DNA from: a virus
DNA: 35,734 bases
Direction: 5' to 3' (one strand)
Virus record (IMG/VR): IMGVR_UViG_3300009418_000052
Coordinates: 1 to 35,734 of that record
Below are positions 12,270 to 28,008 of the stretch, piece by piece (position 1 is the stretch's first letter; every line of letters starts with the position of its first letter). The notes under the pieces are model-generated. The model did no database searches. It saw nothing but the letters and a program-made list of their open reading frames with translations, and was not told the origin of the DNA. The position numbers and the translations under genes are program-made.

Positions 12270-12461
12270 ATGAACTTCTTAAATCGAAAACAATCCAAAG
12301 CAAGCTGCAAAGCCATTGCAGAAACCGCTCGCGCTCACAAGTTCACAATTATTTCAAACGAGTATCTCGACGATCTCGAACGGAGAATTGCAAACATGGT
12401 TCGTGAGGATATTAAACGGCTACCGTCCAAGGGCAAAACAGTTTATCCGTTAATTCGGTAG
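12270..12461 (+). CDS. Small basic helical protein, last gene of plus-strand island
   Basis: The product has 63 residues from ATG 12270. Helices are likely at QSKASCKAIAETARAH and at NEYLDDLERRIANMVREDIKRL, followed by PSKGKTVYPLIR. The long helix plus a basic 'GKTV-P' loop is loosely reminiscent of the second half of a histone fold, but the match is weak and the protein lacks a full third helix. Its 3' end overlaps the convergent dCMP deaminase gene by 12 bases, and no terminator is visible at this junction. Confidence 0.55.
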   Translation: MNFLNRKQSKASCKAIAETARAHKFTIISNEYLDDLERRIANMVREDIKRLPSKGKTVYPLIR

Positions 12462-12851
12462 CTGTTCCAATTCAATCCCAAACTCTTTCGCAAGGGAAAC
12501 GGCTGATCCATCCTTGGAATAAACCTCTCGAAATATTATCTTCTTTATTCCATTAGCCGCTGCCAACCGCATACAATCCTGACACGGCATCAGGGTACAG
12601 GCTAAAAGAAACCCCTCGTCAGGCCGGATATATCTCAAAGCATTAACCTCGGCATGAACAACCCTCTCGCGTCTCCGATCCCGGTCACTCCAATCAATTT
12701 CAATTCCGGCTGGCGCACCGTTGTATCCAATCCCGGCCACGGAATAATCCTCTCGTAATACGCAAGCCCCAACCCTCTCGAAAGGGTCTTCACTTCTAGC
12801 CGCTCCTGTCTCTGCTAATTTCAGAGCATATTCCTCCCAAGATATTCTCAT
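12450..12851 (-). CDS. dCMP deaminase
   Basis: The product has 133 residues and converts dCMP to dUMP, feeding dTMP synthesis. The zinc site is complete: His66-Ala-Glu68 (HAEVNAL) and Pro89-Cys90-Gln-Asp-Cys93 (PCQDC). VGACVL (27-32) and GYNGAPAGI (42-50) are typical of the deoxycytidylate deaminase family. The ATG at 12851 overlaps the stop of a 28-residue membrane peptide by ATGA and is preferred over an in-frame TTG at 12863. It is the last gene of the leftward replication operon and neighbours a MazG-like gene, forming a nucleotide-pool pair. Confidence 0.9.
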   Translation of the reverse strand: MRISWEEYALKLAETGAARSEDPFERVGACVLREDYSVAGIGYNGAPAGIEIDWSDRDRRRERVVHAEVNALRYIRPDEGFLLACTLMPCQDCMRLAAANGIKKIIFREVYSKDGSAVSLAKEFGIELEQLPN

Positions 12852-12934
12852 TGTTCGTACCAATCTATGGCTATAATAACCATGAAAAAAACAAGCATAA
12901 ACAACGACGAGGCTGCTAGTATGTGTAAGATCAT
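12848..12934 (-). CDS. 28-residue single-span membrane peptide
   Basis: On the minus strand the MazG-like stop overlaps ATG 12934 (ATGA), and the 28-codon frame ends in TGA overlapping the dCMP deaminase ATG (ATGA again). It therefore fills the 80-base gap exactly, with coupling at both ends. The peptide has a short polar start, a long hydrophobic core (ASSLFMLVFFMVIIAI) and an end DWYEQ, which suggests one membrane span with the acidic end on one face. Function is unknown; a holin-like, antiholin-like or membrane-anchor role is possible. Confidence 0.6.
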   Translation of the reverse strand: MILHILAASSLFMLVFFMVIIAIDWYEQ

Positions 12935-13149
12935 TTTCTTTGCTTCAAAGCGTCCAGTTCCATTGAGTAGAGGTAGAACCATAAATCCATACATTCCTCT
13001 TGTGCTGCCTTGATCCGTTGGAGTTGGGTCATTTTAATCATGCCCTTATCTCCATTGGGGTTGTGTTCCTTGATTCCAAGGTTGAATTTCTCCGCTGCTC
13101 GCAATCTAAATGCGGTTAGCCCCGCATCTCTTATTTGTTCGTCTGTCAT
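12931..13149 (-). CDS. MazG-like nucleotide pyrophosphohydrolase, short
   Basis: The product has 72 residues with a strong ribosome site (AAAGGA, 5 bases before the ATG). The C-terminal helix KAAQEECMDLWFYLYSMELDAL has the E-E-x-x-D-L-x-x-Y-L pattern of the all-alpha NTP pyrophosphatase (MazG/dUTPase-like) superfamily. The front part (LRAAEKFNLGIKEHNPNGDK) fits the companion helices of short phage members. Such enzymes remove non-canonical or excess (d)NTPs; being next to dCMP deaminase fits that role. It is short for the family, and one metal-binding helix is hard to identify, so activity is uncertain. Confidence 0.5.
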   Translation of the reverse strand: MTDEQIRDAGLTAFRLRAAEKFNLGIKEHNPNGDKGMIKMTQLQRIKAAQEECMDLWFYLYSMELDALKQRK

Positions 13150-13323
13150 TTTTCCTTTCTATGTAGTTGTTTCATCTCGTTGATGAATTAACTTACTAAT
13201 TTCCCCCGGCAATACTAGTTTAGTGGTGTTGCCCAGCTTTGACTCAAACACACATAAACAAATCCAGCCTTTCTTACTGGAAGCTGTTTGTTTTAGTTTT
13301 ACTGCCACTATCCTAAACCGGGG

Positions 13324-13384
13324 ATGGTAGTGCCTCTCATAATTGAGCGGTTATCCTACCAAAATCCTCTCGTCTGCTAATCCA
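13324..13384 (-). repeat. Structured repeat, copy 1 (period 130)
   Basis: This 61-base unit begins ATGGTAGTG, has an 18-base variable hairpin (13333-13350), then a 34-base conserved block (13351-13384). The block differs from copy 2 at one base (13368). In the variable part, CC-T-CTCA and TGAG-C-GG pair around a TAAT loop. Confidence 0.8.
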
Positions 13385-13453
13385 AAAATTCTCCCCGGCA
13401 AACGTGATCTGGACTAATGGTAAAAAATCCAGTTGTTGCCCCGCTTGCCGGGA

Positions 13454-13514
13454 ATGGTAGTGTCCAACAGCATTGCTGGATTATCCTACCAAAATCCACT
13501 CGTCTGCTAATCCA
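13454..13514 (-). repeat. Structured repeat, copy 2 (period 130)
   Basis: The unit has the same layout as copy 1: identical first nine bases, an 18-base variable part (13463-13480) and the conserved 34-base block (13481-13514). Outer pairs of the variable hairpin change in a compensatory way: position 1-18 from C-G to T-A and position 4-15 from C-G to A-T. Confidence 0.8.
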
Positions 13515-13515
13515 T

Positions 13516-13618
13516 CGGGTGCTACCAATGATACCAATTTCGGGGAAAGTTTCCATAAACTACACCTAAATCCATTTGTACTAATAAAGTTCAAAACTGG
13601 TATCATTGGTAGCACCCG
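13516..13618. repeat. 21-bp perfect inverted repeat with 61-base loop
   Basis: Arms 13516-13536 and 13598-13618 are exact reverse complements over 21 bases (each contains GGTGCTACCAATGATACC or its complement). They enclose 61 bases with no gene. Pairing stops abruptly at both ends of each arm. On the minus strand the first arm begins one base after the helicase stop codon, so the transcript would carry a long hairpin there. No flanking target-site duplication is evident. Confidence 0.9.
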
Positions 13619-13619
13619 T

Positions 13620-14915
13620 TTAGTCTCTGGATTGGAGTTCCCACCTGTTTTTTCCATGTGATCTGTACCACTTAACCCTCTCTGGCATAGACTTATGGAG
13701 CCTCCGCAAGTATGTCTGGAGTGCCGTTGGGTAGTAAAGTAGCTTTTTTATCTGATCCTTGTAAATTGAGTCTCCAAATAGGGCTAATTCGAGGTCTTCT
13801 TGGCTTCCTTTCCACGATCCATTTTCTGGAATCACAATTATGTCCAACAACTCCATCAAACGGTTTTCGTGGGTCATTTCAGTCAGGATTTCGACCAGTT
13901 CAGGGTGTTGGAATGCCCGAATACCAAACCTTGACTCCTTATACTCTTTTGGAATCTCATATTTCTCCACAAACTGGATAAAACCCGGTATTTCGGCACG
14001 TAAACCGTCCCAAAAGTCAACCCTACCACGAGGACTGTCGGAATCCATTGGCATAACGGCCACGCCAACCTTTAAAAGCATGATTTTATCTTCGATAGAT
14101 TCTTCGAGGGGAGGCAGCATGATTAGATTTTCAGGTTCATCGTTGACGCTGATGGTGAGTCTCCATATTGGGTATAAGGTGAGTGCTTCCTTGTGTTTAC
14201 CGTGACAAGATTGGAGTGAGTTTACGCACATATCCTTGATTTTGGAACCAAAAACTCGTCTGGAGGGCATGTCAAAAAAAGGCACTTCATCGGCTATGCA
14301 AAGGTGTTCTGCTCCAAACAAATCCCCGTTAAATTCGCTCTTGCCAACCATGTAGCGGTATGGCTTTTCGGCCCGGCCTCCAAGCATTTCTGTAATTATG
14401 TCTTGAAATAGGTTCTTACCGGCGTTTCTAGGGCCAGCGAGGACTAGGGCTTGCCCCGGCATTGGAAATCCCTCTACAACGGCTTTACGGGCCATCTTGA
14501 GCCATCCATAAACCAGAGGTCGTTGGTCTATTTCCTCCCCCTTGAAAAGCTGATCCACTACGGACTGAATCATGGGGTATTTTTTGGATTTCCCTTTAAC
14601 GATGTTTGGGTCGCAAGTTACTAAAACTCTCCGGCCATTCATTAGGTAGCATCCGGTTTTGATCCCGGCCAATCTCCCGGCAAAAGCTACTGCCTTGCCA
14701 TAGGATACGTCTGCCACAAGTGAGTCGATGGGAGACATGTTTTCATCGTCGTTGGCCCGGCCTCGTAATCCCCATGATTTAAGGATTAGTTTTAGGGTTG
14801 TCTTGGTGTATGGCACGTATTCTCCAAACTCGTCTTGGACGTAGTATTTTTCTGATGGAGGATAGAACCAGATGGGTAGCTGGAGACGATGCTCCAGTTC
14901 AATTTTTTTAAACAT
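13620..14915 (-). CDS. Superfamily 3 replicative helicase
   Basis: The product has 431 residues. An SF3-type ATPase core is visible: Walker A GPRNAGKN (161-168), Walker B HLCIADE (204-210), and motif C RLTISVNDEPENL (252-264) with the sensor Asn258. The N-terminal 130 residues (IWFYPPSEKYYVQDEFGEYVPY...) resemble the helper region preceding D5/phage SF3 helicases. It lies 6 bases after the primase-like gene, so the two probably work as the primase-helicase at the fork in separate polypeptides. The C-terminus ends in a basic, helical region (ALQTYLRRLHKSMPERVKWY) likely to bind DNA. Confidence 0.85.
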   Translation of the reverse strand: MFKKIELEHRLQLPIWFYPPSEKYYVQDEFGEYVPYTKTTLKLILKSWGLRGRANDDENMSPIDSLVADVSYGKAVAFAGRLAGIKTGCYLMNGRRVLVTCDPNIVKGKSKKYPMIQSVVDQLFKGEEIDQRPLVYGWLKMARKAVVEGFPMPGQALVLAGPRNAGKNLFQDIITEMLGGRAEKPYRYMVGKSEFNGDLFGAEHLCIADEVPFFDMPSRRVFGSKIKDMCVNSLQSCHGKHKEALTLYPIWRLTISVNDEPENLIMLPPLEESIEDKIMLLKVGVAVMPMDSDSPRGRVDFWDGLRAEIPGFIQFVEKYEIPKEYKESRFGIRAFQHPELVEILTEMTHENRLMELLDIIVIPENGSWKGSQEDLELALFGDSIYKDQIKKLLYYPTALQTYLRRLHKSMPERVKWYRSHGKNRWELQSRD

Positions 14916-14921
14916 GGTGGG

Positions 14922-15776
14922 TTATTTAGGGGTGAAATATTTTGGATGGTTAAAATATAGGATGGGTTGGCGTTTGCCGTTTTCCCGTTTGCCGTCAGGC
15001 ATCCTTACAAACAAGGACTTATTCCAAGTGGCGGTGTCTGCTCCAAGTCTGGTTGCCTCCTTGAAGAAGGTTATCAGTTTTTCTTCTGGAATATCCTCAA
15101 CATGAAACCAACCGTGCAGGGATTTGTTACCAGAATGGACAACGAGTGTAACTGGAATTATTCGGTCGAGGTTGTGAAGGAATGCGGCATGGTCGGCATG
15201 TTCTCCCCTATCAAATTCCACGACCAGATATTTTCTTGGCCCGGTGTTGTCTAGGGTGTGTTGGCTTTTGTTTCCGTTTTGAGCTATGCCCCAAATACTG
15301 GACATTGGGGAAGGCACAATGAATTGTAGGCTTTCACATTTATCCTTAAAAAATTCTAGTGGAGCGGTTCTAAAATCGCTTTGACTTGCTCCACAACAAA
15401 CGAGGGAATCTTCTTCAAACAAAAGTTTTAAAGCCCCAAAGCAATCAATTTCCTCCGCTCTGGTCACAGTCAAACGATTCAACAAGGCTTTACGTAAACC
15501 CTGCATTGGAACAACCCGTTTTATGAAGGCAATGTAATCATCGTCTGGCTTGTCCCATTTGGGACGTTTGATTAGCCCGGTTTTTTTGATTGAGTCGTAG
15601 GCATTGTGGACTTCGTTTATCTGTAAGGCACGTGTGGCATTTGCATCGCAGAATTTTTCAGCCCCATCAACCTCAATCCCCGCATCAATGAACACACAAC
15701 AAACGTGGTATATCCATTTGTGGACTCCCTCACCTGAATCGGGGCATGGACTAATTGGCAGGTTCAGAGTGTTCAT
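14922..15776 (-). CDS. Archaeo-eukaryotic-type primase (prim-pol)
   Basis: The ATG at 15776 gives 284 residues; longer starts at 15809 or 15812 extend further into the previous gene. The catalytic signature is in the C-terminal third: YLVVEFDRG (183-191), then VVHSGNKSLHGWFHV (212-226) with the active-site His, then RMPDGKRENGKRQ (258-270). These correspond to the hhDhD/E, sxH and hhD-type motifs of the AEP superfamily, the first motif having one clear Asp. The N-terminal half is helical and Cys-containing, perhaps an accessory domain. It would lay primers for the family A polymerase encoded nearby. Confidence 0.7.
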   Translation of the reverse strand: MNTLNLPISPCPDSGEGVHKWIYHVCCVFIDAGIEVDGAEKFCDANATRALQINEVHNAYDSIKKTGLIKRPKWDKPDDDYIAFIKRVVPMQGLRKALLNRLTVTRAEEIDCFGALKLLFEEDSLVCCGASQSDFRTAPLEFFKDKCESLQFIVPSPMSSIWGIAQNGNKSQHTLDNTGPRKYLVVEFDRGEHADHAAFLHNLDRIIPVTLVVHSGNKSLHGWFHVEDIPEEKLITFFKEATRLGADTATWNKSLFVRMPDGKRENGKRQPILYFNHPKYFTPK

Positions 15777-16089
15777 TTTGGTGGGTTGAATGGAGGATTC
15801 CACAATCATCACGCCTACCGCTAACTGTTATCAGATCGGCCTGTTTCAATTCAGAAATTCTGCCGCTTATGCAGTTAAGTCTTCGATTCATTTGTTCAGC
15901 TATTTCTTTGGAGATAATACCGCTTGAACGTTTAATGATTTCATAAACTTTCGCTCTATCTCGCTGTTTAATAATTGATGGTGGATTTGCCGCCATGCTC
16001 TCTATATTACCTCGGTGTCTTTTTTGGCATATATCATCTAATACGTTGAACTCGTGCATCAGCGTGGTGTGTTTGGTTTTGTTATCCAT
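15751..16089 (-). CDS. Winged-helix DNA-binding protein
   Basis: The product has 112 residues. After a polar N-terminal 40 residues comes RAKVYEIIKRSSGIISKEIAEQMNRRLNCISGRISELKQADLITVSG, the helix, recognition helix and wing of a MarR/GntR-like winged-helix domain. The end is His- and Asp-containing and polar. It overlaps the primase gene by 26 bases and follows the polymerase gene, so it may be an origin-binding or regulatory protein for the replication module. Such short wHTH proteins are common in phage replication operons; the target is unknown. Confidence 0.7.
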   Translation of the reverse strand: MDNKTKHTTLMHEFNVLDDICQKRHRGNIESMAANPPSIIKQRDRAKVYEIIKRSSGIISKEIAEQMNRRLNCISGRISELKQADLITVSGRRDDCGILHSTHQNEHSEPAN

Positions 16090-16114: not shown

Positions 16115-17887
16115 TTATTTTGTGTAGTGTTTTGCTTCTATTGCTTCAGCGGCAATTGGACAACCCTCCAGCCATTCGGGGGTGATGGACATTAGGTTTT
16201 CTATTTCCTGTTTTGCGTCCTTGTCTTCCTCGTCAACCTCTACAATAAATTCATCGTGGACAGTCCATATTATGTTGAACCCGGCTTTCAGTATTCGGTA
16301 ATAGCAGTCTGCGAATACATCTCTGGCTGTGGCTTGGACTATGTTTTCACATAACTTACCCCCGTAGAAATTTCTTGGTGCTGCCCCTCTAGTTATGGAG
16401 GCAAAGTGTTGTGGAAATTCTGCATTTGTATCGTGGCACTTGCAGCTGAAGTATGAAATCCATCTTCCACTAGGCAGTTGCAGTCGGTTGTCCTGTCCAA
16501 TGTCTGCCATGAATGCCTTCTGCCGTCTTCTCCAAAAATCCACGACCATCTGGTTTGATTTCCGATAATCCCTGACAATCTTCTTGGCCTCAATGTCGGT
16601 CATGTCCACTCCCCAATTTTTAGCGACTGCCCTGAACTTTTTAGCCCCGCATCCGTATCCCAATCCAAGTACCCTTACCTTGGCTAGTTGTCTGGTTTGC
16701 TTGTCAACTGTTTTGGCATCTGGAGGTAGCATTGTAGTTAGTGCGTGGGCTTCGTATAAATCCTTACCGTCCCGTATAAATTCTAATAGTTCGGCATCAC
16801 CGCATAACCAAGCTAGGCATCTAGGTTCAATCTGCGCTAGGTCAGCAAGTATAAATTTTTTACCGGCCCGTGGAATGAACATCTCCCTGACGTTTATTCC
16901 GAAAATATCTCCCCTTGGAATGTTTTGGAGATTTACTCGTGTATCTCCGCTCCATCTTCCGGTTAGGTTGGCCCCGAAATATTTCAAATTAAATGGGAGG
17001 ATTCCATCCCCCACTAAATTACTGGAAGTTCTACGGTCTATGGTTTCTAACAACCTGACCAATCTGTTAGCTGACCTCCAGTTTCGCAAGGATGCAACGA
17101 TGGGGTATTTTTCGGCATATTCGGCTTCCCATCTGTCGCAGTCTTCATTGCCCATTGCGGTGCTTTTCGGAGCGGGTATTCCTTCCTTGGCACAAAAGGC
17201 TTTTAGCTGTAGCGGTGAAGTGGGTGGAGCATCCTTTGCCCAAGGGATTTTAGTTTCAGCCCTGTCCTTTTGCACCATCAGATCGACTAGCCCATTTCTC
17301 AGGGCATCTATATTGATCCTGACACCGTTGAAGCCGCTTTCCATTGTGTGCCGGGCAATGGTTCTTTCGTGAGTTGGCCAATGGGGGGCATAGGTTTCCC
17401 ATAATTTTAAGCATAACTTGGAGTCGTTAAGGGCGTAGTAGATTAGTTGGCCGGTTTCCTCCCCGTTCAACGATTCAAATTTTCGTCCCTTCATTTTATC
17501 TCGAACAGTTTTGTCAGGCTTCACTCCAAACATTTGTTCGCTTGCCCCGGCAAGGTTTCGTGGGGCTTGGATATAAACGGCTAGGTTTGCTGTGCAATCC
17601 CATGCGGGTTTTATTCTGCTAGGGATTAGTCCTTTAATTTGGCATCCCCTAAACACGGTTGAATCAAACCCGGCATTGTGGGCTATAAAATGGGGGGAAT
17701 CTGAAACCTGATCCCAAGGTGCTTTACTTGGATGACCTACAAACTCAATTCCATCTCCAAGCATGGAAACCAAATAGGGATCGAATTCCTCATGGGCAAC
17801 ATATCCCTGATTACCCAAATCCCTTACAGAATAATCCTTACTGTAATAGGTTTCAAAATCTATTGCTATTGTGGTATATGGACTCAT
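16115..17887 (-). CDS. Family A DNA polymerase with 3'-5' exonuclease
   Basis: The ATG at 17887 overlaps the previous stop (TAATG), giving 590 residues; an upstream frame extension to 17944 overlaps that gene and is rejected. The exonuclease is complete: DFE (10-12), HNAGFD (70-75) and YALND (151-155). The polymerase has GRWSGDTRVNLQNIPR (310-325), motif A FILADLAQIEPR (345-356, Asp349), motif B R399-QLA-K403-VRV-L407-GLG-Y411-G, and motif C VHDE (543-546). No 5' nuclease domain is present. Motif A reads DLAQIEPR instead of DYSQIELR, and the residue at the E. coli Phe762 position is Leu407. It is the replicative polymerase of the phage. Confidence 0.95.
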   Translation of the reverse strand: MSPYTTIAIDFETYYSKDYSVRDLGNQGYVAHEEFDPYLVSMLGDGIEFVGHPSKAPWDQVSDSPHFIAHNAGFDSTVFRGCQIKGLIPSRIKPAWDCTANLAVYIQAPRNLAGASEQMFGVKPDKTVRDKMKGRKFESLNGEETGQLIYYALNDSKLCLKLWETYAPHWPTHERTIARHTMESGFNGVRINIDALRNGLVDLMVQKDRAETKIPWAKDAPPTSPLQLKAFCAKEGIPAPKSTAMGNEDCDRWEAEYAEKYPIVASLRNWRSANRLVRLLETIDRRTSSNLVGDGILPFNLKYFGANLTGRWSGDTRVNLQNIPRGDIFGINVREMFIPRAGKKFILADLAQIEPRCLAWLCGDAELLEFIRDGKDLYEAHALTTMLPPDAKTVDKQTRQLAKVRVLGLGYGCGAKKFRAVAKNWGVDMTDIEAKKIVRDYRKSNQMVVDFWRRRQKAFMADIGQDNRLQLPSGRWISYFSCKCHDTNAEFPQHFASITRGAAPRNFYGGKLCENIVQATARDVFADCYYRILKAGFNIIWTVHDEFIVEVDEEDKDAKQEIENLMSITPEWLEGCPIAAEAIEAKHYTK

Positions 17888-18153
17888 TAAATATATTTCC
17901 TCACGGTTGTTTGCATTTGCTGTTCTCTTGCCCATCGCACCCATTTTCTAGGTGCTCCATATCTTTTTTTGATTTCTTTAATTCGTCTGTTTTTATGGGG
18001 GAAAGCAGTTCTGTAATTCATCGTCCGACTTTCGTGCCTTCCAACTTCATCAGTTGATAATCCATGTTTAATAGCAAACCGTTTAAAGGCCAGATTGATT
18101 GCCATGCTATTGGTAATGGTTTCATCTGAAATTGTAACTTGGTTTATGTTCAT
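17887..18153 (-). CDS. Small basic protein, unknown
   Basis: The product has 88 residues, basic in its second half (HKNRRIKEIKKRYGAPRKWVRWAREQQ), with a helical N-terminal half (SMAINLAFKRFAIKHGLSTDEVGRH). Start and stop overlap the neighbouring genes by TAATG on each side, so it belongs to the same coupled message as the polymerase. The basic helix suggests nucleic-acid binding. No family is recognised. Confidence 0.55.
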   Translation of the reverse strand: MNINQVTISDETITNSMAINLAFKRFAIKHGLSTDEVGRHESRTMNYRTAFPHKNRRIKEIKKRYGAPRKWVRWAREQQMQTTVRKYI

Positions 18154-21714: not shown

Positions 21715-24700
21715 TTATTCAATTGGGTCGGCAAAGTCAATAAACCTAGAATGCGCCCTTCGTAAAGCAGCGTTTTTAACTTGTTTTAGTCTGCTTATTT
21801 TAGTCGCTTTTTCACTAGCGTCCATATTTTTAGCCGCACCAATAAGTCGAATACTTTTATTGGTTTTTCTAATAATAGATTCAGTGATTTTTACTGTTGG
21901 ATGTATTTGGAATAAAATCTTATTCAATTCTCGGTGTTGTTTAGCTTCTTCTGTTTTTCCATTTTGAATGTATAATTTATGCAAATCGGCTGCTTGATAA
22001 GATTTTTCTCGCAACAATTTGAATTTTTCCAATTCATAAAAAGATGATGGAGAAGCTAAAAACCTTCTAGCTATTGGCACATCATTAGGTTTAAAATTTT
22101 CATATTCAGAAGGGTGGAATAGTTTTTCAACACGAAGCAAAGTTTGCCCCACTCCACCTGTAAAATGTTTTGCCACTTGCTCAAGAGCTTCCGGACTCCA
22201 ATCTATTGAACCTGAAGCTACTTCATTGCCTCCAGTTAAACTATTTAGCCCTTGGGCAACGGCTTTAAAAGGCGCACGTACAGTGTTCCAATGTCTATAT
22301 GAATTTGGAGTATCATAAGGAGCAAACGGGCTTGGTTCCGGCCAAATTTTAGCACCTTTCCAATCTCTATTGGTAGTCAGATCAACAACAATATCTCCAA
22401 CATCAGGAGTAATTGATCGAAGTAAGGAAGTACTTCCTCCTATTGGATTAAAAGAATCTGCTGCGGCAGACATTATGTTTAATGCTGCTGCTGCTGGTTT
22501 CATAGCACCCGGTAAAGAAAGTGAAGGGTCATATCCTGAAGCCCTTAAATATCCATCTCGTCCAGCCTGATATGCTTTTGCTCCCATATAATGAAGCACG
22601 TTGTATCCATATGGCATTGGAAAAGCAATAGCATCTTTTCCAGTAATTGGATTTATAAATATGAAATTGGTTTTTTTCTTCCACTCTGGAATTTTATCAT
22701 AATAAGAAATGCCTTCTTCGTCTTCTCCAGAAAATAATTGGTTAAACATTTCTAATGCAAATCCAGTGAGGGCTATGTTGAAGGCAATCTTTTTTCCTTT
22801 TTTAGTATGCACTAAACTATTGTAAACAATATAGCTTCCTTGCGCTCCCGCATTATAAAACATATACATATTGTTTAACCCGGTTCCCAATGTTCCTCGA
22901 CGAGTAAAGTTGATTGTTATGTTTCTTGCTAGATAAGCGGCTTGTTCTGCTGTTGCTCCACTATCTCTGGCAAGTTTATATGTAGCTAAACGAGTAGCCG
23001 TTTCCACGGCAGTATTCGTATCTTCCATCATTTCTTTAGCTCCCATAATAAAACTTTTTACCAGACCATCATGTATTTTACCTGTTTTTTGTTTTTTACT
23101 TAAAGCATTAATTTTTTTAGCAACATCTTGGAGTTTATTCATTTTTGATTCAACCGTCTCAATACCATGAAATGCTATTTTACCTCCATACTTTTTCATT
23201 TCTTGATATGCTAAATCCATTTCTCCAGTAAGTTCTTTCCCTTGATTAAGAGGGTCTTCACCTCTCCATGTGGCTCTCATTGCATCCCAAATGATCCCTT
23301 GTCTACTTTGAACAAGTTTACCTAAACCCGGCACATATTTTATCCCCGGTATTAGTCCCGGCAGATTCCATATATTGACTAGTTTTTTAGCTAAATCTGT
23401 TTTACCAGCAGCAGTTAAATTTATTTTTGCAAAGGTAATATCTCGAATAAAGTTTGGAATGACAAAGGCTGGGTTCCAAGATGTGCTTGCTTTAGATAAA
23501 ACTCTAGTGATTTGGCCCAAAGGTCTAGTCATTGCGGCTAATCCAGATACTCCTGAACTACGCATTTGGTGAGCTAAAGCTGCATTTTGAATTTGTAAAT
23601 AGTATTGTTTACCATCAACTTTAAAACCAACTAAATCAGTATCTTCAGTCCATCTGGGATTACGAACCCATTTTACCTTTTCCATTCCTTTACGTTTTTT
23701 TATTTTTCTAACGTAATCAGGGTGGGCTAAAGTTATTTCATCGTTTGGGTTTTCCGTAATAAAAGCCATTAAACTTTGTAAAACTTTATTTCGTTCACCT
23801 CTAACTATAGTAGTGTGATACTGTTGGAATATGTAGGGGATAATATCAGTCGGTCTACTTTCTCTGCCCATTCTTCGCATTGATTCTTCTCCGCGAACAT
23901 CCAAACCGCTACCTAAAGATTGCATTATAGGATCAGAACCTTCACGCCCCCTGAGAGGTACATAGTTTTTGTAATAAGTGCTGAGTCGTTTATGGTTAGC
24001 GGCATCTATTAGTCTATATTTAAGAGCAAGGTCTAAATTACTTTTTGTTAAAGAGTAAACATAAGTATCCGCTAAATTTTGTAGATTGGTTAGTTTGTTT
24101 TCCTTTCCAAATTTTTCTAAAATTTCTCTAGCTTCACCGTTAGTAATACCCGAACCTCCTTTTTTTTCTGGATCACCAAATTCATCGGGATTTATTTTAG
24201 CGAGATGGGCATTAGCTTCTTCGGCATGTTTGGCCAGTAGGAAATTTGTTAATTCCTCTGGAGTAATGCCAGAATCTATTAAGGCTTGGTGAAATTCTTG
24301 TTCATGTTTATCTAGATTAAAACCTAATTCCCCCACAATAGATTCCATAGCATCCAGTTTCATATGAGCATTGATTGCGTCTGGAAGACTAGCCAGTTTT
24401 TCCTCAAGAGTACTACCCGTAACGCCTCTCCCAACCCTAGCCATAATATCGGCAAGGTCATAATAATCGTGTAAAAATGTTCGTTTAAACAAAGCTTTAA
24501 CTGGAGCAACAATGCCTCGATCTTTAAATTGCTGTAATGAGTGCCTGTTTAAAAAAGTTTCCCATTTGGTATCAACATAACTGTCGCTATTTGATATTTG
24601 TTTTTGCTCAGTTTTGTTTTCTCCACCCTTCAAAATAGCCATAATAGCTTTTATGATTCGCCTTGGAAGACTATCAATTGGTCTGATTCTACCTGTACCC

Positions 24701-27700
24701 GCATCATCCCATGCCATTTGAACAGCTTCGTTATCTGGAGATTGTCTAATTGCTCTGGCAAAATCTTTAACTGTTTTAACTCCCGCATCTAATATTGCGA
24801 TTGCAAGTTTTACCAAGGCTTTAAAAACCTGTGGAATAGCGGCGGGATTAAAAAACATGTTCATTCCAAGAGCGTTTACATCGCCCACTTTACGTAATCC
24901 AGCCATTACGTGTCTAATTTCTTTTCGTATGGCCCAAGTATTACTGTTTTTAGTATTAGGATTGTCTGGTGATTTAATTTGCTTGACCCAACGTTGGCCT
25001 TCGCCCTTATATGCACCTTTTTTTGAAAGCACCATATCGTGCATGAACTTATCTTGAACTTTTCCTATCTCTTCTATATTTTCTTCCTTTTGTTGACTTA
25101 GCCTATTGTCTTTATTTTTTGCTTGATCAACTTTTGTTTTTATTCCCTTTTCAACTAAAAACTTTTGAATGTCTGAAATCCTATTTTCTAAATCAAGCGG
25201 AGAAGTTAAAGTAGCTTCATCTTTCAAATCTTTTGGAAGATTGTGTCCAAATTTTTCTTTTGTAACATTGCCAGAATACCACCTAATGTCTTCTATTGTG
25301 TTTACATTATTTATTACATTTGCAATGTCCTTATTCATCGCCTCTTCAAAAGCAACATCCTTTTGTTGTTGAGGAGGTACTCCTTTTTTAAACAGTTCTT
25401 CTTTTGTGAACTTTTTAATTTCCAAATGTATAAGTGGTTTATTTTTAAAATCAGTTCCTTTAAAAGAGAATTCTTTTGGTGGCCCTTGAGCTAAAAGTGT
25501 TGGAATACTGAGGTTTTCTGCTTCCAAATCTATGGGATTTTCTTGAACTATGTTTTCTTCAGCTAAAAGTTCTGCGGCTCTTTTATTAGTAATCCTTCCG
25601 GCATCCACATCTTCCTTTACAATGTCAACCGTATCTTGTTTTTGATCTCTAAGAACTAGTTTTAAACTAGATGCTAACTTAGTTAAGGCATAGTGTTCTG
25701 CATTAGCATTAATGTGTTTTATGCCATCTATTTCTATTACTTTTGAAGGATCGCCTTTATGTGGATATGGGCCGGTGTCTGGATTTTCTGGATCGCTTAA
25801 AAGTTCTATTAATATTTGTTGTTCAGGTGAGGGTAATGTTATTACGGGTTCTGTTATAATTCCACGGTGTTCGCCATATTTAGGAGCATCTTTCTTTTTA
25901 ATAGTTAAAGATTTTAGTTTTTTACGGGCGCGACTAAGTTGTTCCAGTTTTTGTTCTCTAACAGATGGTTTTATAGGAGGTTTTCCAGTATCAATTATTG
26001 AATAGCCTGTAATGTTTTTATTTTCATCTGTTTCAAGTACTATTTTATGTATCTTTCCTGTTCTAATTTCTGTTTCCCATTTAGCAATATCTCTATTTGT
26101 TTTTGCTACCTTTTTTCTAAGCTCGTCACTTAAATAAGTAGTGTCTGTTTCGTTTTCTGCTATAAACGCTATTCTTTTATCTACTTCAAAAATAGCTTCC
26201 TCTATTCGTTCGGCTGTACCTAGTTGAGTAGATAGAGAAGCACTGTCTAATCCTCCATATTTTCTTATATTATTGCTAAAGTTTGAAAATGGGATAGCAA
26301 TACTAGTGTTTTCTGCCGTATCAAAATGGGCTTTTTTATTAGAAGGAACAATTCTTACTGAACCCCTAATGCTTTTCCATCGTTTAACTAGTGCTTCTAA
26401 ATCTTTCGGAACTTCTTTATGTAAATCTTCTTGGGTTAAGTGAATTTTTTCTCTATCTATAATAGACGCAAGTTCTGGAGGCATTCCTTCTGCTACTAGT
26501 TCCTCCCATACTTCAACAACTTCTTTCCAAGTCATGCCTTTAGGTTGACTTTTAAAATCAGGTAAGGGAAGAAGTGCTGGATTATGTGGCAACACTTCGC
26601 CATCGGGATTTAACAAATTAGGTCTAGCTGGCACAAGAGAAACTATAGACCCATCTTCTCCTAGTTTAAAAAACTGTCCGTTGTGTTGGATGAAAATATT
26701 TCCTTCAGTATCAGCTAAATCTGGATAGTGGAAATTAGGATTTTTTCCTGCTTTCTTTAACTCTTCTACTTCTTCTCTAGTTGCCTTTCTGGCTCCAACC
26801 CATTCACCGTTTTCATCTCTTATAGGAATCCAAACTGCTCGCCTACCTGCATCTGCTTCTCCAACTGGGTCTTGTTCTCCAAAATCTAAATCTTTATCTA
26901 AATCTATTTTATCCCAATTAAAATCGTTTGGAATTGCTATTTCATGTGTGTTTCCTAAAAGTCCTTTTGGATATACCCAAGTTTTCGTCGGCCCCCGTGG
27001 GGCAGTAGCTTTTTTCACAGCTTCTTGACCCCACTTTCCATGGTATTGTAGTCTTGGAACTCCTTCGTTTTCTTTAAGCCTATCCTGAACCCATTTTCTA
27101 GCCGTAACCTCTTGCCCCCATGCACTAAATCCTCTTATTGCAGTTGGAATACCTCCACCTATAACTTCCTGTAATCCAGATCGAAAAGCATTTTCTAGTT
27201 TATCTCCCCTATCTATTCCTTCTGATTCAGCATAAAGATCAGAAAGCACTGATCCTCCCGCTCCAATTGAAGCATCAAATGCTAATTCGGCTCCAACTTT
27301 AGTGCCTACTTTAGAAACAACACTTCTTCCTAAACCGGGGGTAAGTCTTGCAACTGGAACCATAGTGGCCAATCCAGCTTCTCCAACGGCAAGAACCGCA
27401 TCTGTATTTGAAACTCTTCTGGCTATTTCAAATGCCTTTTGTAAATCCACATCTCCCTTTTGATCCATCCCATATCGTTGGGAAATATAGGTGTTTCTCA
27501 TTGATCCACCTTTTGCGGTAGTTCCTTGCATTGTGGCAACAGCGGCAGAACCCGTCCACAATCCAGCTATAGGTGTTGCAACTATAGAGGTAGCTGCACC
27601 AACCCCAAAACCAACAGCAATATCTCTCGAAACACTACCAAAAACTTCTCCTACAAATCCTCCAGATAAAATTTCGTAGTCTTTAACTTCGTCGGGGTCT

Positions 27701-28008
27701 TCTTTCCATTTTTGGTATTCATCTTCCAAGAGCATGAATGCTTCACTATCGTCTGATCTAAGTATGGCACTCCCTACAGCTAAATCATACTTGGCTTGAT
27801 CCCATGAATCTCCATATGCTTCAGCAAATTGCCCCCAAAATCCTTTTTGAAGATAGGGGTCTTCCTCTTCTTTATCAGGCCAAGCCTTATTTGGGAATTT
27901 TTGACGAACCTCGTCCTCCATCATACTTGTTGAATAGTATTCTGGAAACTCCAGAAATTCTGACGGAGTATCTAAACCAAAAGGATTTTGAACTTCTACA
28001 GTTGGCAT
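21715..28008 (-). CDS. Giant polyvalent-type internal virion protein
   Basis: The product has 2097 residues, about one sixth of the window. The N-terminal 300 residues include a Gly/Ala-rich hydrophobic region (about 110-160, SVSRDIAVGFGVGAATSIVATPIAG) and a second around 190-240, suited to membrane insertion. The middle is charged and helical. From about 1380 to 1800 the sequence resembles the LPD38-type large polyvalent protein domain: RPTDIIPYIFQQYHTT, NPAFVIPNFIRDITFAK (about 1510) and ARNITINFTRRGTLG (about 1690). In podoviruses such proteins ride in the capsid and are ejected into the host with the DNA. I saw no RNA polymerase, lysozyme or MuF motifs. Confidence 0.7.
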   Translation of the reverse strand: MPTVEVQNPFGLDTPSEFLEFPEYYSTSMMEDEVRQKFPNKAWPDKEEEDPYLQKGFWGQFAEAYGDSWDQAKYDLAVGSAILRSDDSEAFMLLEDEYQKWKEDPDEVKDYEILSGGFVGEVFGSVSRDIAVGFGVGAATSIVATPIAGLWTGSAAVATMQGTTAKGGSMRNTYISQRYGMDQKGDVDLQKAFEIARRVSNTDAVLAVGEAGLATMVPVARLTPGLGRSVVSKVGTKVGAELAFDASIGAGGSVLSDLYAESEGIDRGDKLENAFRSGLQEVIGGGIPTAIRGFSAWGQEVTARKWVQDRLKENEGVPRLQYHGKWGQEAVKKATAPRGPTKTWVYPKGLLGNTHEIAIPNDFNWDKIDLDKDLDFGEQDPVGEADAGRRAVWIPIRDENGEWVGARKATREEVEELKKAGKNPNFHYPDLADTEGNIFIQHNGQFFKLGEDGSIVSLVPARPNLLNPDGEVLPHNPALLPLPDFKSQPKGMTWKEVVEVWEELVAEGMPPELASIIDREKIHLTQEDLHKEVPKDLEALVKRWKSIRGSVRIVPSNKKAHFDTAENTSIAIPFSNFSNNIRKYGGLDSASLSTQLGTAERIEEAIFEVDKRIAFIAENETDTTYLSDELRKKVAKTNRDIAKWETEIRTGKIHKIVLETDENKNITGYSIIDTGKPPIKPSVREQKLEQLSRARKKLKSLTIKKKDAPKYGEHRGIITEPVITLPSPEQQILIELLSDPENPDTGPYPHKGDPSKVIEIDGIKHINANAEHYALTKLASSLKLVLRDQKQDTVDIVKEDVDAGRITNKRAAELLAEENIVQENPIDLEAENLSIPTLLAQGPPKEFSFKGTDFKNKPLIHLEIKKFTKEELFKKGVPPQQQKDVAFEEAMNKDIANVINNVNTIEDIRWYSGNVTKEKFGHNLPKDLKDEATLTSPLDLENRISDIQKFLVEKGIKTKVDQAKNKDNRLSQQKEENIEEIGKVQDKFMHDMVLSKKGAYKGEGQRWVKQIKSPDNPNTKNSNTWAIRKEIRHVMAGLRKVGDVNALGMNMFFNPAAIPQVFKALVKLAIAILDAGVKTVKDFARAIRQSPDNEAVQMAWDDAGTGRIRPIDSLPRRIIKAIMAILKGGENKTEQKQISNSDSYVDTKWETFLNRHSLQQFKDRGIVAPVKALFKRTFLHDYYDLADIMARVGRGVTGSTLEEKLASLPDAINAHMKLDAMESIVGELGFNLDKHEQEFHQALIDSGITPEELTNFLLAKHAEEANAHLAKINPDEFGDPEKKGGSGITNGEAREILEKFGKENKLTNLQNLADTYVYSLTKSNLDLALKYRLIDAANHKRLSTYYKNYVPLRGREGSDPIMQSLGSGLDVRGEESMRRMGRESRPTDIIPYIFQQYHTTIVRGERNKVLQSLMAFITENPNDEITLAHPDYVRKIKKRKGMEKVKWVRNPRWTEDTDLVGFKVDGKQYYLQIQNAALAHQMRSSGVSGLAAMTRPLGQITRVLSKASTSWNPAFVIPNFIRDITFAKINLTAAGKTDLAKKLVNIWNLPGLIPGIKYVPGLGKLVQSRQGIIWDAMRATWRGEDPLNQGKELTGEMDLAYQEMKKYGGKIAFHGIETVESKMNKLQDVAKKINALSKKQKTGKIHDGLVKSFIMGAKEMMEDTNTAVETATRLATYKLARDSGATAEQAAYLARNITINFTRRGTLGTGLNNMYMFYNAGAQGSYIVYNSLVHTKKGKKIAFNIALTGFALEMFNQLFSGEDEEGISYYDKIPEWKKKTNFIFINPITGKDAIAFPMPYGYNVLHYMGAKAYQAGRDGYLRASGYDPSLSLPGAMKPAAAALNIMSAAADSFNPIGGSTSLLRSITPDVGDIVVDLTTNRDWKGAKIWPEPSPFAPYDTPNSYRHWNTVRAPFKAVAQGLNSLTGGNEVASGSIDWSPEALEQVAKHFTGGVGQTLLRVEKLFHPSEYENFKPNDVPIARRFLASPSSFYELEKFKLLREKSYQAADLHKLYIQNGKTEEAKQHRELNKILFQIHPTVKITESIIRKTNKSIRLIGAAKNMDASEKATKISRLKQVKNAALRRAHSRFIDFADPIE

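Follow-up and report, generated by a model that had tools for sequence, protein, structure and literature searches.

Our analysis makes it very probable that the virus genome studied here encodes a structured RNA that recurs in other phages. The window, i.e. the whole stretch of DNA that was analysed, comprises the 35,734 bases of an uncultivated virus record, and two tandem copies of the element are encoded on its minus strand, in the same sense as the flanking operon. Comparison with further contigs points to a phage-borne RNA of about 115-170 nt that would form part of a polycistronic mRNA and fold between cistrons. The combination of this structured RNA with a mechanism of transcript processing or insulation is a more tentative proposal, which we hold at less than even confidence. 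The preliminary description of this DNA had read the repeat as a selected RNA of no named class, with conserved loops and covarying stems, and homologues in other phage contigs show the same.

On the minus strand a DNA polymerase gene is followed by a primase-like gene, a helicase/primase-like gene, a gap of 470 bases, a gene for a 72-aa product and a dCMP deaminase gene (Table 1); the repeat is located in the gap. Since the flanking operon runs on the minus strand, its transcript is the reverse complement, and all element sequences are given here in minus-strand reading (mRNA sense). The 72-aa gene product had no match in Pfam or PHROG, so the label "MazG" that it had received is unconfirmed. 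A 2097-aa ORF is also found on the minus strand of the window (21715-28008).

Table 1. Features of the element and its surroundings in the window (MFE, minimum free energy fold).
Feature	Position	Strand	Details
DNA polymerase gene	16115-17944	(-)	
Primase-like gene	14922-15812	(-)	
Helicase/primase-like gene, upstream of element	13620..14915	(-)	weak DUF5906 match, 25.0 bits, cut-off 27.6
25-nt inverted repeat, just after helicase stop codon	13516..13618 (arms 13516-13540 / 13594-13618)	(.)	24/25, 53-nt spacer; outside the RNA element
Conserved 5' flank of duplicated unit	13368..13384; 13498-13514	(-)	TGGATTAGCAGACGAGA; TGGATTAGCAGACGAGT
Element copy A, short form	13387..13497	(-)	core model 13448-13497, 73.1 bits; homologous to L008, L009, L004
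Copy A first arm	13455..13491	(-)	outer stem TGGTAG/CTACCA, internal loop GATAA/CA, apical hairpin TCCAGCA-ATGC-TGTTGGA
Copy A second arm	13393..13453	(-)	TCCCGGC.../GCCGGGG, GGCAACA (13440-13434), hairpin CTGGA/TCCAG; from sequence and MFE
Element copy B, long form	13198..13367	(-)	extra arm in second domain; core model 13318-13367, 74.7 bits
Copy B first arm	13325..13361	(-)	outer stem TGGTAG/CTACCA, internal loop GATAA/CA, apical hairpin CCGCTCA-ATTA-TGAGAGG, one G-A mismatch
Copy B second arm	13204..13323	(-)	CCCCGG/CCGGGG; TAGTGG-CAG (13310-13302) pairs CTG-GGCAACA-CCACTA (13236-13221); from MFE, bulge-helix shuffle test 24/2000
72-aa gene, downstream of element	12931..13149	(-)	no family match
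dCMP deaminase gene	12450..12863	(-)	

A repeat search recovered two units of 67 nt (13318-13384 and 13448-13514; 82% identical) and confirmed the spacing of 130 noted before. Within them lies a 50-nt core of the form AATTTTGGTAGGAYAA-[hairpin]-CACTACCAYCCCCGG, at 13497-13448 and 13367-13318. A core model, of which both copies were themselves part, finds them at E about 1e-21, the next match in the window having an E of 0.2. As the preliminary description had stated, the TGGTAG/CTACCA stems are identical in the two copies, the 18-nt hairpins differ by compensatory changes, and CCCGG stems are present at 13204-13209/13318-13323 and 13394-13401/13445-13452. The repeat comprises the first half of the element only; each copy extends through the second stem.

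A protein search with the helicase identified three sister contigs (L004, L005 and L006; 66-79% identity). L004 has a single copy, which occupies the same gap behind an inserted ORF; the element is absent from L005 and L006. A DNA pattern search with the core matched the contig of L004 plus two more, L008 and L009, which brings the known set to five copies in four contigs, the window included, with one or two copies per record. A pattern built on the 3' half (the second arm alone) retrieved exactly the L004, L008 and L009 contigs, as did the 5' pattern, which indicates that the two halves travel as one unit. Between L008 and L009 there is 81% identity across 121 nt, and this similarity stops at GGAAAAATTTT and GGGGGTAAATTT, thereby marking the edges of the element. 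The alignment of the window to L004 that spans copy B (68.6% identical, 271 nt) runs into the next gene.

The genes around the element in L008 and L009 (one copy each) are unlike each other and unlike those of the window. In L008 it follows a small basic ORF, close to a convergent terminase gene; the genes upstream, whose ORFs gave no significant family match, are likely a lysis region. In L009 (record G005) it stands at the end of a Cys-rich ORF, before a short ORF and adjoining convergent genes. All contigs have the element between cistrons or at cistron ends, and the downstream genes are unrelated among window/L004, L008 and L009. Some tail-side and accessory proteins are common to these phages, which therefore draw on one gene pool; the neighbours of the element still differ. 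The preliminary description had pointed to homologous phages without the stems, or with non-compensatory changes, as evidence against a selected RNA. L005 and L006 do lack the element; where it is present, however, the changes are mostly compensatory and conservation extends well beyond this genome.

Wider searches added no copies. Among 84,980 species genomes the exact pattern found no homologue, and the sole match of a degenerate pattern there (L010) is G+C-rich, has no P1 stem and was dismissed as chance. Three further matches of the 5' pattern (L023, L024 and L025) fall in apparent coding sequence, are devoid of the hairpin and were rejected. Against annotated phages, neither blastn of the region nor tblastn of the helicase gave a match, and blastn of the element returned chance fragments among phages and nothing among plasmids.

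Several observations concern the flanks. At 5381-5415 of L004, after an inverted repeat, CCAGACGAGAGAATTTTGG partially matches the 5' flank of the window copies and is followed by an ORF; to judge from the sequence, this looks like the place of a first copy that was replaced by the inserted gene. The 9-mer GCAGACGAG precedes the element in L009 (about 910-920) and in the window (13372-13380 and 13502-13510). In L009 these nine bases are translated as ADE, close to the end of the Cys-rich ORF, and the flank in the window may be what is left of a gene of this kind. Downstream of the helicase stop codon, each of the four helicase relatives carries an inverted repeat of 19-28 nt whose arms stand roughly 40-80 nt apart (the search tolerated one mismatch at most), at about 5287-5379 in L004, about 5286-5378 in L005 and about 5316-5451 in L006. 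Its arms vary among the phages, and each arm resembles a direct pair of 9-10-mers that terminate in CAA (e.g. GGGCGGCAA-GGGCGGCAA in L005 and GTGTCGTCAA-GTGCTTCAA in L006). The arrangement suggests sites of iteron type, recognised by a replication initiator that may be the helicase itself and whose specificity would have co-evolved.

Comparison supports a first arm (P1) made up of an invariant stem, an asymmetric GAYAA/CA internal loop and, on top, an apical hairpin that covaries freely. No gaps are needed to align the five cores, and 30 of the 50 columns are invariant; all six pairs of the outer stem (TGGTAG/CTACCA) are the same in every copy. The apical hairpin differs in every copy, and in four of its seven pairs both partners have changed. 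Across the entire core, 95.4% of cells are paired and the covariation score is 0.369, compared with 0.157 +/- 0.053 in shuffles, a contrast to be read with the caveat that related sequences can beat shuffles without any structure, here for five sequences from diverse contexts. Neither the paired fraction nor the covariation score was reached in any of 500 shuffles, and every slid register scored far lower. In the aligned sequences the covariation thus appears real but shallow, with five copies in four contigs and the P1 stem itself invariant. Among the hand-assigned helices, read on the minus strand, 127 cells are Watson-Crick, seven G-U, none A-C and two other; the G-U excess fits an RNA of the mRNA-sense strand and is supportive only, the helices having been chosen on that strand.

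Folding energies lie below those of shuffles, with z -2.7 for L008, -2.5 for L009 and -4.9 for copy A (MFE -44.4 kcal/mol, z -4.85). Energy does not tell the strands apart, because the opposite one folds well too (z -2.4 to -3.4). The two arms may be linked at their ends by a weak A/U helix (P0), which is present in none of the MFE folds. Forcing the consensus structure costs 2.7-4.9 kcal/mol, and the MFE of L008 prefers a local CCCGG/CTGGG hairpin. An automatic full-length alignment model was poor and was left unused, MAFFT having misaligned the second arm.

Comparison likewise supports a second arm (P2), a CCCCGG/CYGGGG stem with a 7-nt GGYAACA bulge module. In the sequences, CCCCGG follows the core, pairs with CYGGGG at the 3' end and encloses CUGGGYAACACC, with a conserved bulge of the form CUG-GGYAACA-CC / GG-CAG. 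The strands of this module run in the order CUG-GGYAACA-CCUCC, loop, GGAGG-CAG in L008 and L009, whereas in copy B and L004 UAGUGG-CAG (or GUUAGCG-U-CAG) comes first, then a long loop and CUG-GGCAACA-CC. The same bulge and the same two helices are therefore permuted. The unconstrained MFE of copy B and of L009 shows the 7-nt bulge; those of L004 and L008 do not. Shuffles that preserved the bulge string gave equally good helices in 24 of 2000 cases for copy B, 0 of 2000 for L004, 209 of 2000 for L008 and 148 of 2000 for L009, so support is strong for L004, moderate for copy B and, taken singly, weak for L008 and for L009. Copy A retains GGCAACA between different flanking helices, and its second arm may be reduced. 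Within the extra arm of the long form, a terminator-like hairpin, its loop TNAGAAAGG and its tail T-rich, is found at 13281-13263 of the window and 5838-5856 of L004, with different stem sequences in the two.

By every search made here, the element appears as a new family of phage structured RNA. No window sequence matched any of the 4227 models of Rfam 15 at the gathering threshold, and relaxing the limit to E<=5 brought up nothing but miRNA models, which fell on the separate inverted repeat, and a single weak match to a CRISPR repeat; L009 had no Rfam match. The Rfam models recognised no hammerhead three-way core in the window or L009, and ARAGORN found no tRNA or tmRNA gene. An HDV-like ribozyme was considered and rejected, since the topology is wrong, there is by inspection no upstream strand complementary for P1 in L008 or L009, and Rfam gave no match. 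HDV-like ribozymes have a nested double pseudoknot with the 3' strand of P1 just before GGGCAA, and the element is without one. The string CUGGGCAACA, followed by a hairpin and a stem strand, resembles the HDV strand after P1, as a lead only. In the literature on such motifs we recognised none as this element, which is a weak test. Because the data require no new kind of mechanism, the element takes its place among the orphan structured phage RNAs. Like manA, wcaG and other orphan motifs, which occur partly in phages, it has purely comparative evidence and an unassigned function (PMC2864571); unlike them, it matches no such family in Rfam.

A gene-specific regulatory role is not supported by the contexts. 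A tandem riboswitch-like leader, i.e. a cis-regulatory aptamer or attenuator for the downstream gene, would account for the tandem copies and the conserved internal loops, both of them typical aptamer traits; the 3' strand of P2 (GGGGAG) in L004 lies 4 nt before an ATG of the downstream ORF, and CCCGG can pair with either a near CYGGG or a far CYGGGG, a possible switch. However, this overlap with a ribosome site is clear in L004 only, no conserved terminator follows the element, and its unrelated downstream genes show no steady tie to one gene family or pathway, so that we consider such a leader unlikely. The narrower proposal of a leader dedicated to the MazG/dCMP deaminase genes is not supported, given the differing neighbours in L008 and L009. 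Somewhat less probable still is an antitermination or pausing RNA that acts on RNA polymerase in the manner of the HK022 putRNAs, which are about 70 nt long, have two stem-loops and act in cis (PMC9378689). Compared by description, not homology, the element shares with them phage origin, independence of particular genes, two bulged stem-loop arms, conserved loops and a sequence-invariant stem; yet it is longer than their about 70 nt, and where putL and putR lie near early promoters, it stands late in its operons and, in the window, L008 and L009, close to convergent genes.

The sporadic presence in sister phages, the different sites, the tandem duplication and the sharp similarity boundaries would also suit a small non-autonomous mobile element with structured ends, or intergenic filler spread passively and without phage function. 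No target duplication or nearby transposase was identified, though, copies number only one or two per record, covariation and the invariant stem indicate selection on an RNA fold, and GCAGACGAG upstream of the window copies and in L009 hints at ordinary recombination transfer with flanking sequence; we regard this origin as improbable. Least probable is an element acting as DNA, be it a cruciform, a replication origin or a recombination site. Its place in the replication operon beside a long inverted repeat is in favour of it, and palindromic stems could form in single-stranded DNA too. The G-U pairs, in contrast, fit an RNA of one strand, which makes the cruciform suggested earlier less likely than RNA; the origin reading likewise lost ground, given that the element is not kept at the replication locus in relatives, L005 and L006 retaining the inverted repeat without it and L008 and L009 carrying copies away from any replication gene of this kind.

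Among the earlier suggestions a processed phage RNA is the most likely and is the one favoured here. Changing contexts together with tandem copies favour an intercistronic processing or insulating element over a gene-specific riboswitch or an origin, and so do the distribution of prophage hammerheads and the known permutation of ribozymes. It would act in cis, work whatever gene adjoins, and most likely process, insulate or stabilise the transcript, either by cleaving itself or by offering a nuclease or RNA-binding protein a place to land. Granted the RNA, such a role comes a little closer to an even chance. Two sister phages do without the element, which is thus not essential. Prophage hammerhead ribozymes flank genes of varying identity, in tandem, and have been proposed to process long phage transcripts (PMC3088659). 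Like these, the element is intercistronic and tandem or clustered, with inconstant neighbours, a fixed core and variable stems; hammerheads self-cleave and match Rfam, in contrast to the element, which has no Rfam hammerhead match and for which cleavage is only proposed. More specifically, it might be a new self-cleaving or protein-recruiting class of phage RNA, in which the module CUG-GGYAACA-CC / GG-CAG occurs in two natural strand orders and an unpermuted (reduced) copy A stands beside a permuted copy B, although we would call this doubtful.

With the element comes an uncatalogued RNA family, compact and testable, that occurs in phages across several gene contexts. Natural circular permutation of RNA is known from hammerhead and twister ribozymes (PMC10085705), and with this precedent a permuted module here would be well suited to tests of catalysis or of tight binding to a ligand. 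Should the element serve in processing, phages would have one more way to partition long transcripts.
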